This document shows positions 21,887 to 64,000 of a stretch of 64,000 bases of DNA, in pieces. Below the pieces are notes generated by a model. That model did no database searches, was not told where the DNA came from, and saw only the letters and a program-made list of their open reading frames with translations. Positions within the stretch are counted from its first letter, which is position 1, and each line of letters starts with the position of its first letter. A program made the position numbers and the translations under genes. The DNA comes from Paenibacillus aceti (GTDB taxonomy: Bacteria; Bacillota; Bacilli; Paenibacillales; Paenibacillaceae), in assembly GCF_003614185.1 (NCBI RefSeq), contig NZ_KZ987724.1, positions 711,712 to 775,711 on the forward strand, read 5' to 3'.

Positions 21887-21934
21887 GCTAATGTACAGAT
21901 TTGTAGAACGCGAAACCGCGCTCACCCAAATGGT

Positions 21935-22068
21935 AACGAACCTAGGTAACGCTATTTACCTCAAAAAAGGCGCTTTAAAAATCTAAGGAAACGTGGTGCC
22001 GCTATTTGGGCATATTGCCGTCTTAAACCTTGGATTTCATCAAAATAGCGATATGGAGTTTCGTTAGA
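21935..22068. repeat. Four-box repeat family, cluster A (three boxes)
   Basis: Two degenerate forward boxes start at 21935 and 21985 (50 bp apart, ending CGCTATTT and CCGCTATTT). A well-conserved inverted box lies at 22043-22068 (AAATAGCGATATGG then AGTTTCGTTAGA), 58 bp after the second. A fourth box would fall inside the TPR gene and is absent. It sits between convergent genes. Confidence 0.8.
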
Positions 22069-36990: not shown

Positions 36991-37179
36991 AAATCTAACG
37001 AAACACCATATCGCTATTTCCGCAAAATCCACACCATTTCAGCTCTAACGAAACACCATATCGTTATTTGAGTAAAAGCCCGTCTTTTAGCCCCCTTTTC
37101 GCCGCAATAGCGATACCTAGTTTCGTTAAACTTTTAAATCGCTCCTTTTGGAGCAAATAGCGATACGTAGTTTCGTTAC
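36991..37179. repeat. Four-box repeat family, cluster B (complete: two forward, two inverted)
   Basis: Forward boxes start near 36995 and 37046 (TCTAACGAAACACC then ATATCGYTATT). Inverted boxes start near 37105 and 37154 (AATAGCGATAC then TAGTTTCGTTA). Box-start spacings are about 51, 59 and 49 bp. The cluster opens the gene-free stretch 36965-38141, between divergent tmcAL and ylbN, and could fold into a cruciform with box 1 pairing to 4 and 2 to 3. Confidence 0.88.
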
Positions 37180-37230
37180 AACCCAGGGCAGCCTCTGTTT
37201 CGCGTTCTCAAAGCCATGCATTTATCGAAA

Positions 37231-37416
37231 GACTGCAAAAATGCAGGAATTTCCTAAATATTTCGACCCGTAGAGAAAATTCCTGCTAAAATGCAGGCTT
37301 TTACTCCACTTTGGCCCGATTCTAACGAAATATGAAGAAAAGCCTGCATATTTGCAGGAATTTCTTAAGAACAGGTGGTTTGGGGCGTGAAAGCCTGCAT
37401 ATTTGCAGGCTTTTTG
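37231..37416. repeat. Cluster of four TGCAGG palindromes with 50-60-50 spacing
   Basis: Palindromes of the form CCTGCATATTTGCAGG are centred at about 37240, 37289, 37350 and 37401, giving spacings of 49.5, 61 and 51 bp. Flanks alternate AAAGC and AATTTC, giving each box an orientation. The last ends in a T run and could terminate transcription. A related solo box is at 58479-58500. Confidence 0.8.
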
Positions 37417-37481: not shown

Positions 37482-37770
37482 CAGTGCGTGAGGAGCCCTG
37501 TGCCCAGTACGCGTGAATTGCCGTAACACCGCCCAGGAACCTTACGCAATACACGTGCGAATTAGTGTACCCTGTTCAGGAACTTGTGCAGTACGTGGAA
37601 ATTTGCCGAATACCCATCCAGTCTCCGTGCCAAGTACATAGGAATTTACCGTAACCTCATCCAGGAGCCCTGTGCCCAGTACGTGTGAATTAGCGTAACC
37701 CCATCCAGAGCCTTGCATCCAAGTTCGTGAGAGTTTGCCACACCGCCACCCAAAGCCCATGCCCAGTACG
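37482..37770. repeat. Degenerate tandem repeat, about seven units of 42-46 bp
   Basis: Units begin at or near 37482 (short), 37505, 37547, 37589, 37631, 37677, 37720 and 37764. Each opens with CAGTACGTGTGAATT or a variant and closes with a CCAGGAGCCCTGTGC-like tail. Copies differ at many positions, so the array is old. There are no unique spacers, so it is not a CRISPR array. The remaining sequence to 38080 shows no gene. Confidence 0.85.
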
Positions 37771-55270: not shown

Positions 55271-55296
55271 TCTAACGAAACTCCATATCGTTTGGG
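55271..55296 (+). repeat. Solo box of the four-box repeat family, between ffh and rpsP
   Basis: A single forward box (TCTAACGAAACTCC then ATATCGTTTGGG), 24 bp after the ffh stop. No partner boxes lie at the 50 or 60 bp spacings. It falls in the 5' region of the rpsP ribosome binding site. Confidence 0.75.
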
Positions 55297-58367: not shown

Positions 58368-58478
58368 ATTTCTCTCCTATATCTCTATTTTACCTATTTC
58401 ATTATAATCGAGCGCCACTATAATAAAGTTACAAAATTGGAATGAGAATTTGCTCATGTATCCGCCTTTTCCGGAGAA

Positions 58479-58500
58479 GCCTGCAATTATGCAGGAATTC
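58479..58500. repeat. Solo TGCAGG palindrome
   Basis: GCCTGCAATTATGCAGG followed by AATTC matches the boxes clustered at 37231-37416. Confidence 0.6.
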
Positions 58501-58599
58501 CCCGAGATTATCGCCCTGAGACAGTGATTTCCTCCACATTTCAGATGGTTGAGCAATACATGGCCATGTCGAAACAGTGACTGTCCTGCGGCCCTGAAT

Positions 58600-58845
58600 T
58601 GTAACGGAACAGGGGCGTTATTTGCTGCATCTTGCGTCAAAAAGAGCCGCCGCCAATTCTAACGAAACAGGGTATCGTTATTTGCCTCAAAAGGGGGCGT
58701 TTCAAAATCTAACGAAACAGGGTATCGCTATTGGGACGAATTAGGGGCTAAAAGGCCGATTTTTGCTCAAATAGCGAGATGGTGTATCGTTAGATTTGAG
58801 AGATGGCTAATATTGTGGAAATAGCGATATGGAGTTTCGTTAGAA
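58600..58845. repeat. Four-box repeat family, cluster D (two forward, two inverted, plus a diverged outer box)
   Basis: Forward boxes start at about 58658 and 58708 (TCTAACGAAACAGGG then TATCGYTATT); inverted boxes start at about 58768 and 58818 (AAATAGCGAGATGG then TGTATCGTTAGA, and AAATAGCGATATGG then AGTTTCGTTAGA). Spacings are 50, 60 and 50 bp. A diverged forward box (GTAACGGAACAGGGG) precedes at 58601. The 670 bp between the deacetylase gene and the small gene at 59038 hold nothing else recognisable. Confidence 0.88.
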
Positions 58846-61815: not shown

Positions 61816-61955
61816 CTCTAACGGAAATGAGGGGCCTTAATGGGGGATTTTCTAGGCAATTGGGGCGATTAATTCTTCAATAGAGGATCTGATTTCCGTT
61901 GCAATATTGAATTCGGCAAAATCATCAAAATAGAGGCTGTGAGTTCCGTTAGAAC
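61816..61955. repeat. Diverged four-box repeat, cluster F (one forward, two inverted)
   Basis: A forward box (TCTAACGGAAATGAGG, from 61817), an inverted box (AATAGAGGATCTG then ATTTCCGTTGC, from 61878) and another (AATAGAGGCTGTG then AGTTCCGTTAGAA, from 61929). Box length (25) and spacings (about 61 and 50) equal those of clusters B and D although the inner sequence differs. Confidence 0.75.
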
Positions 61956-62091
61956 TGTTGCGATCAATCAGGAAAAAAATTCAACCTTGCAGGCTGCTCA
62001 AATTAGCGGCCGTACAACCGATAAATAGTATATAGTGTACTATAGGAATATTTTAAACTAAGCAGTCGTAGGGTCAGAATGAGGAGAAATG

Positions 62092-62770: not shown

Positions 62771-62906
62771 TCTAACGAAACTCCATATCGCTATTTCTGC
62801 AAAAACAGCGGCAATAAATTTTTAACGAAACACCATATCGTTATTCTGAGCAAATCCCGCCTTTAGACCCCAAATTCGCTCAAATAACGATCCCCAGTTT
62901 CGTTGC
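62771..62906. repeat. Four-box repeat family, cluster E (two forward, one inverted)
   Basis: Forward boxes start at 62771 (TCTAACGAAACTCC then ATATCGCTATT) and 62821 (TTTAACGAAACACC then ATATCGTTATT); an inverted box lies at 62881-62906 (AAATAACGATCCCC then AGTTTCGTTGC). Spacings are 50 and 60 bp. The fourth box expected near 62931 is missing; group II intron sequence begins about there. Confidence 0.85.
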
Positions 62907-64000
62907 GCGCCTAGCCAAGCTAGGCATAACTAACTGATGAAAGTTCAGTCGGGGTAAAGACCAAGCTGCCCCGTAGCTAGCAGGCAGTCTACGACGAAAT
63001 TCGTGGACTGAAGCCCTGTAAAAAGCATGTAAAAAAAAAACATGTGAAGCAAATCCACAGGCCGTAATGAAAATGAACCCTACCGCATCGTCAAGGTTAA
63101 CCTACCTCAAAGGGAGGAAAAGAGAGTGCCGAGCCCCGAGCGAAAGGGTGAAGGCCATGGAACGCATGAAGAACTTGGATCGCAGTGCGGAAGAACTCTC
63201 CGGTGTATAGGGGTCGGCATGTGGAGAAAGTTATGTCTGGAACTAGGGAGACCCTCACCCACACGAAAAAAATACGTAAATGGTGAACCTATAAGCCTAA
63301 ATAGGTGAAATGGGAATCCGTGGGAAGGGAGTCGGAGGGGGCCATAGTACTGATGAGGCAAAGGACAACATAACCTTGCGGAGGGAAGGGCGTCAAAAGA
63401 CAATACCCCACTTCATTCATGGGAACTGAGGAGGTAAGAGCGAGTGAATGCCCGAAAGGCTAACTACGCCAAAGAAAAAGCTCGACAACTACAAAGAACT
63501 CTATACCTTGCGGCTAAGGAAAAACCGACACGTCGATTTCATGCCCTCTATGACAAGATCTACCGGGAAGATATCATGACCTACGCGTGGAAACAGATCA
63601 AAGCAAACAAAGGTAGCGCGGGGATAGATCGAGTAACGATCCAGCAGATTACCGAAGAATATGGAGAGAAACGCTTTATCCAGGAAACCTGTGGTCAACT
63701 CAGAAATGGAACGTACCGCCCCTCTCCCGTTCGGAGAGTCGAAATCCCTAAAGGGGATGGTCGAACAAGACCCTTGGGGATTCCAACCCTGCGAGATCGA
63801 CTGGTACAGATGGCCACAAAAATCGTGCTAGAAGGGATCTTCGAGGCAGATTTCAAGGACTTCTCCTATGGATTCCGCCCGAAACGAGGTGCCCACGATG
63901 CGATCCAGAAAATCATGACGACGGTCAATGAAGGGAAAATATACTGGGTCGTCGATGTGGATATCAAAGGATACTTCGATCATATATCGCATGAGAAACT
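62905..64000 (+). mobile_element. Group II intron, 5' part (3' end beyond window)
   Basis: Downstream of rnhB, about 540 bases of GC-mixed, highly structured sequence without a gene precede a maturase frame, as domains I-III of a group II intron do before a domain IV-encoded protein. Short hairpins are visible, for example CCTAGC-CAA-GCTAGG at about 62911-62925 and a run around GGGGTAAAGACC. I could not place a GUGYG 5' boundary with confidence; it probably lies between 62902 and 62950. The insertion is intergenic. Confidence 0.75.
63444..64000 (+). CDS. ltrA: Group II intron reverse transcriptase/maturase (3' truncated by window end)
   Basis: The GTG at 63444 follows GAGGAGGTAAGAGCGA. About 185 residues are visible. 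They match intron-encoded reverse transcriptases: RT0/1 region KANKGSAGIDRVTIQQI, RRVEIPKGDGRTRPLGIPTL, DRLVQMATKIVLEGIFEADF, RT2 SYGFRPKRGAHDAIQKI and RT3 VDVDIKGYFDHI, whose Asp begins the catalytic triad; the YADD box lies beyond the window. No stops or frameshifts occur in the visible part. It should copy the intron RNA into DNA and aid its splicing. Confidence 0.93.
   Translation, partial: MNARKANYAKEKARQLQRTLYLAAKEKPTRRFHALYDKIYREDIMTYAWKQIKANKGSAGIDRVTIQQITEEYGEKRFIQETCGQLRNGTYRPSPVRRVEIPKGDGRTRPLGIPTLRDRLVQMATKIVLEGIFEADFKDFSYGFRPKRGAHDAIQKIMTTVNEGKIYWVVDVDIKGYFDHISHEK

Follow-up and report, generated by a model that had tools for sequence, protein, structure and literature searches.

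A four-box intergenic repeat, widespread in Paenibacillus and its relatives, with an address that differs between species and is usually shared by its boxes

Four-box units in the window and the elements inserted into them

The window (the whole stretch of 64,000 nucleotides of Paenibacillus aceti DNA analysed here) contains two complete four-box units, two three-box units and relics. The box pattern TAACGAAACNNNNTATCGYTATT, allowing up to three mismatches, matched 15 times in the window, whereas 100 shuffles gave 0.01 matches on average. One complete unit lies at 36994–37180 on the plus strand, with two forward (F) and two inverted (I) boxes starting, as 23-mers, at F36996, F37046, I37106 and I37156 and with box centres that are C-rich on the plus strand. 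The other lies at 58658–58844 on the minus strand (F58660, F58710, I58770 and I58820; centres C-rich on the minus strand). Start spacings are 50/60/50 bp in both. A sequence-only reading had proposed a forward-forward-inverted-inverted repeat at four places, and all four units are real and lie where it had put them. Its fixed geometry holds, but the 51/59/49 spacing it gave for the first unit does not, the exact values being 50/60/50.

A three-box unit at 21932–22068 (F21934, F21984 and I22044; spacing 50/60) is without a fourth box. At the orthologous spot in Paenibacillus sp. GM2 (G003, C10:1148549), both F boxes and the outermost I box are over threshold (spacings 50 and 109), and G008 and G031 have one box each. 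A truncated single box at 55271–55295 (plus strand) was classed as a relic by comparison of orthologous loci, which hold four boxes in GM2 and none over threshold in G008 and G031. The degenerate box at 61922–61956 (minus strand; repeat family D3, a weak matrix match at C1:773640) apparently carries another address (see below), TAACGGAAC..., as read by eye. Two further repeats were observed in the window. A second palindromic family, of AAAGCCTGCATATTTGCAGGAATTT type, adjoins the two four-box units at 37228–37414 and 58476–58505, and half of this palindrome is also seen by eye in the centre of some four-box units. A 46-bp direct repeat, AGGAGCCCTGTGCCCAGTACG..., occurs at 37491–37536 and 37663–37708, 172 bp apart.

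The three boxes at 62771–62907 (F62773, F62823 and I62883; spacing 50/60) are the first three of a unit that is complete but interrupted by a group II intron. A match to RF02003 at 62931–63072 (plus strand) marks the intron's 5' part, with a reverse-transcriptase ORF (RVT_1) downstream, outside the window. Beyond the intron lies the fourth box (C1:777836, about window position 66125), also outside the window. The insertion point, judged by eye, is the outer edge of the third box.

The repeat likewise harbours an IS3-family element (NF033516, E 3.3e-102). The P. aceti genome has three copies of it, one interrupted by an IS66 element, and each copy lies directly against the centre of the second box (junctions by eye). 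The two copies with both sides intact show 3-bp duplications, ATC and ACC, at the dyad; in the third, one side no longer has its box. We also read by eye the flanks of five homologous insertions in G092, G011 and G021: three are consistent with a site at the centre of a box-like palindrome, and two are ambiguous. Insertion sequences that target REP sequences, including IS3-family members, are known (PMC1525189, as far as the accessible part of that source goes). The groups of the form FFI + I, F + II or F + I that were opened were considered as autonomous copies and rejected, being due to the group II intron or the IS3 element (once with the nested IS66). An autonomous copy, with a gene between two pairs of boxes, was found in none of the four long-gap or one-sided cases opened.

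Geometry, anatomy and genomic setting of the unit

In the 5.6-Mb P. aceti genome (G000) we counted 642 boxes at up to two mismatches (319 + 323 by strand); the reversed pattern gave 0 + 2. We trained a weight matrix on 400 kb of this genome (61 matches at the score used, 0 in the reversed control) and applied it to 600 kb and 200 kb of G000 as well as to 400 kb of GM2. Across 600 contiguous kb that include the window, the FF spacing was 50 in 18/19 cases, FI 60 in 18/23 and II 50 in 17/18. Pooled counts, which cover the 25 commonest classes and include material chosen around known boxes, gave FF spacings of 50 (87), of 48, 49 or 51 (9) and of 102 (1); FI spacings of 60 (84), of 59 (7) and of 30, 43, 44, 109 or 110 (6); and II spacings of 50 (87), of 49 (3) and of 41, 52, 73 or 85 (4). 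With order and spacing nearly invariant in contiguous stretches of the genome and recurring in other species and genera, the earlier view that the entity is the whole unit of about 185–187 bp, not the single box, is borne out. An apparent depletion of boxes at the terminus was rejected, as exact matches lie inside the apparent gaps (14 spots, 10 in G000 and 4 in G008; for example, C1:2097147). In GM2, whole units with their flanks are tandemly duplicated at C10:1048837–1050106 and from 1344301 onward, with periods of about 273 and 418 bp in five and three copies.

G000 and three relatives yielded 69 distinct 50/60/50 units, of which 60 remained after removal of those at least 90% alike. The module consensus from these 60 is TC-TAACGAAAC-nnnnn-ATCGYTATTT-n5-AAAA. 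The box is imperfectly palindromic. Its outer half consists of TAACG and a four-letter address and is separated by a loose centre, about 5 bp long, from the inner half, CGYTATT, after which comes an A-tract. We make no claim from arm covariation within the box (A/T to G/C at letter 6), where the search pattern itself fixed both letters. Two boxes point inward from each end of the unit. The A-tracts are mirror-symmetric in the unit and stand at fixed places in alignments of 27 and of 60 units, in keeping with the earlier remark that the inter-box spacers are related; median pairwise identity of the spacers in the 60 units is 49% and length change is rare. Borders are sharp, with a flank information of about 0.06 bits per site (60 units). 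The four box centres are C-rich on one common strand in 59/69 units (near-duplicates included), compared with an expectation of 29.8 and a maximum of 42 over 500 shuffles, and the unit therefore has a left and a right end.

By crude ORF-based gene calls, 48/59 box groups touch no called ORF, and the two groups that lie wholly inside ORFs are both single boxes at threshold score. Convergent genes flank 18/40 units that have three or more boxes, compared with 130/644 intergenic gaps of at least 60 bp (same crude calls).

We compared stretches of G000, GM2, G008 and D2_2 (G031) by synteny, in 35 comparisons of canonical units. Classed by length alone, 8 orthologous intervals were retained, 15 were shorter and 12 were longer. 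Of the shorter ones, 9 had no box over threshold and 6 still had two to four. The retained set, 8 comparisons over 5 distinct locus pairs, is small, overlapping and conditioned on retention; in it, identity was 96% in arms, 80% in centres plus spacers and 73% in flanks (171 aligned flank letters), with gap openings per 100 nt of 0 in arms, 0.6 in centres, 1.1 in spacers and 12.9 in flanks. At C1:3953007 of G008, box number is altered by one 50-bp module. For the empty sites in relatives that the sequence-only reading had suggested looking for, candidates exist as intervals with no box over threshold (9/35 comparisons; for example, G000 858109 against G003, G008 and G031), but none of the aligned junctions of such intervals shows a clean insertion. 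In the target-site duplication test, the best frame was k = 3 with a permutation p = 0.04, this being the best of many frames.

Recent amplification in G143 and G135 was tried as a guide to the unit ends and set aside: the four-box unit there is embedded in longer repeats, and those ends are therefore uninformative on the unit. At the G135 loci L161–L167, the unit lies within a larger repeat that has inverted ends of its own. L165 and L167 show, by eye, an apparent end of coding sequence that is shortened in the other copies.

Breadth of the repeat and its shared address

The AAAC-type pattern, at up to one mismatch, was present in 36/147 genomes, G000 included. A GG/CC variant matched in 121/147, many of them at control level (0–7 per strand), with counts of 366 in G006, 324 in G037, 271 in G016, 263 in G011 and 262 in G073. 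Within one genus, box number ranges from 0 to 589 per genome, and G018 and G019 have no match to either pattern. A GTDB scan for tandem box pairs, in which the gap could take any value from 12 to 42, returned at least 115 stretches, with 80 loci among the matches listed: 68 from Paenibacillus, Cohnella, Gordonibacillus or Paenibacillaceae, 9 from Alicyclobacillus, 2 from alkaliphilic bacilli with short tandem repeats and 1 from a Bacillus sp. with a full unit. The same architecture was seen in other Paenibacillus and in Cohnella. Among the matches listed, this free-gap scan gave FF spacings mostly of 50 or 51 (30 and 17) and II spacings of 50 (48), with outliers of 40 from Alicyclobacillus, 38 at L262 and 52 at L271. 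No plasmid or phage matched the repeat at E 1e-5.

Two observations lie at the edge of this range. Alicyclobacillus mengziensis (L257, L273, L281, L302 and others) has TAACGC...GCGTTATT boxes in arrays, spaced about 40 and 52 apart; these may be distantly related to the unit, with a different architecture. The Bacillus unit (Bacillus sp. Marseille-Q3570, L275, positions 200–390) has four boxes, a GACA address and 51/60/51 spacing, and may reflect transfer, contamination or mislabelling.

The four letters that follow the constant TAACG vary between species and usually agree within a unit. We quantified this in 44 units from 60 of the 80 loci listed, seeded on FF = 50, with one unit per locus and several per species; the 20 loci left out were 9 from Alicyclobacillus, 3 other arrays and 8 GM2 or D2_2 loci already used. 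Address agreement was 0.82 within units and 0.43 between units (maximum of 500 shuffles, 0.48), and agreement of the box centres was 0.41 within and 0.37 between units. By box pair, agreement was 0.82 for FF, 0.84 for II and 0.82 for FI; because it is alike for all three, it reflects shared site identity, not base pairing. The exceptions are three P. ginsengihumi units (L279, L306 and L307) in which the second box has a different address from the other three. We found at least ten addresses (AAAC, AATC, AACT, GACA, GACT, GTTG, GCGG, GAAC, CTAG and ATCA). In G000, 88/96 boxes have AAAC, partly by construction of the matrix.

The length of the unit's centre takes one of two values. With starts from 108 to 122 searched, the first inverted box began at 109–110 in 38/44 units, at 120–121 in 6/44 and at 111–119 in none. 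The longer centres thus add 10–11 bp, about one helical turn, and four of the six come from P. sp. Root52, P. xylanexedens (two strains) and P. polysaccharolyticus.

Readings of the unit and comparison with known repeats

The four-site array is a real element, widespread in the order, and the array is the unit under selection. As judged from sequence comparison, we give a probability of about 0.5 to the reading that it is a non-autonomous, dispersed intergenic DNA element acting as a double-stranded array of four protein-binding sites. That the four sites differ together between species suggests a candidate DNA-binding protein evolving with the unit. Such a sequence-specific protein would read the address in the boxes and assemble on the phased array, thereby spreading the unit and keeping address and protein co-evolving; a transposase or a recombinase-like protein, working in trans, is the likeliest candidate. 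We infer double-stranded DNA binding by a protein, a single dedicated factor and mobilisation by that factor, and we infer mobility of the unit from its dispersal and its presence or absence between relatives, not from clean insertion. Our analysis identified no cognate protein. Protein recognition of double-stranded DNA accounts better than RNA structure for the fixed lengths, the 10-bp step and the shared addresses.

The most specific version of this explanation is a classical MITE: the unit would be the remnant of a DDE transposon with two transposase sites at each end, moved by the transposase of that transposon. The terminal inverted repeats with sharp ends that we found fit it, as do the polarity of the unit and its presence or absence between relatives; however, no parent element turned up in the cases opened, and the duplication signal (p = 0.04) is the best of many frames, so that we regard this version as possible but doubtful.

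Conservation of arms and lengths at fixed loci exceeds what a merely mobile element would need and leaves room for a host role. Escherichia coli BIMEs, for example, are bound by gyrase and IHF. If the array were an architectural or regulatory site of the host, bound by a nucleoid or topology protein and kept for its benefit at gene ends, its spread would be a by-product. The arms and lengths conserved in place, the enrichment between convergent genes and the avoidance of called ORFs all point this way. However, box number varies from 0 to 589 among genomes of one genus, 9/35 orthologous intervals hold no box over threshold, and the address varies by species, whereas slow change would be expected of a host protein that has many targets. 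We consider a purely host-serving site unlikely.

Structured RNA or a cruciform, based on pairing between the two forward and the two inverted boxes at the level of transcript or extruded DNA, is improbable. Single units do fold far below their shuffles (z −6.8 and −9.4), but this is inevitable for an inverted repeat, which by itself accounts for the low energies. With spacers taken alone, the real sequences were lower than shuffled ones in 29, 36 and 39 of 60 units, at best a weak effect. Across the 60 units, however, each half paired no better with its own partner than with swapped ones (53.3 vs 54.3 of 91 register pairs), 240 chimaeras folded slightly better than the real units, and box centres paired at chance level. 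No clear strand preference was seen (the C-rich strand was lower in 23/60), and none of the 70 strongest column couplings was in pairing register, most of them resembling subfamily structure. Across species, the address is shared to an equal degree by F1 and F2, which have the same orientation, and by F and I boxes (0.82 in both cases), and box identity therefore explains the arm changes. On the pairing, chimaera and coupling tests we reject RNA structure as the selected feature. The two-stem RNA suggested at first thus lacks support, with own-half pairing no better than swapped and covariation in register absent; a cruciform is improbable, and nothing that we found selects for it.

A REP/REPIN-type element mobilised by a Y1 (RAYT) transposase is very improbable: the unit looks REP-like in its palindromic, intergenic, many-copy and lineage-specific boxes and as a target of an IS3-family element (compare PMC1525189, in its accessible part), but PF01797 (Y1_Tnp) has no match in the box-rich G003, G008, G031, G011 and G073, which rules out a PF01797-detectable RAYT as mobiliser, matches box-poor G018, G029, G034 and G039 as well as G006, G016, G037 and G000, and in G000 gives 14 matches that share one score, as for an ordinary IS200/IS605 element.

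Returning to the array of protein-binding sites, we tentatively extend this reading to a helically phased four-site array whose swappable shared four-letter address has been re-written repeatedly in different lineages of the order, and which would be the visible half of a new class of address-reading, trans-acting proteins that spread the unit, partly domesticated by the host. If so, one four-site scaffold carries, within the order, a natural series of switches in DNA recognition, co-evolution of such elements and their proteins becomes testable, and an address matched to a fast-evolving DNA-binding domain is a handle for finding the protein. The repeat is also a large source of genome variation and of insertion-sequence and intron targets in Paenibacillus, and we found it under no name.

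The suspicion that the repeat belongs to no described family stands, with no gathering-level Rfam match at the units and no publication on the repeat found. The window units gave one weak match, inside the unit at 36994 (15.3 bits, E 1.1), and eight G143 and G135 loci likewise had no gathering-level match. Our literature search, which covered mostly sources open without subscription, found no published description of this repeat, and the accessible part of one review of short repeats (PMC10969869) has no mention of Paenibacillus or Bacillus that we found.

As described in the accessible parts of the respective sources, three groups of known elements come closest. REP, BIME and REPIN elements with their RAYTs (PMC3116915, PMC2817692) share with the unit short palindromic intergenic boxes dispersed in more than 100 copies, composite arrays and lineage-specific sequence. 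Their replicating unit is an inverted doublet, whereas here four sites stand in F-F-I-I order at a fixed 50/60 (or 70)/50, with no open-ended alternating array and no Y1/RAYT in five box-rich genomes. MITEs, ERIC and Correia elements (PMC10969869) are likewise short and intergenic, with inverted ends and variable copy number; the unit differs in having two tandem direct sites per end at fixed spacing, with no convincing target-site duplication and no parent among the cases opened. IS1397, ISKpn1 and ISPsy8, which insert into REP palindromes (PMC1525189), resemble the element described here as IS3-family members inserting specifically into a dispersed palindromic repeat; in contrast, the present element does so in Paenibacillus, at the dyad centre of a four-box repeat, and a 3-bp duplication accompanies the two copies that have both sides intact.
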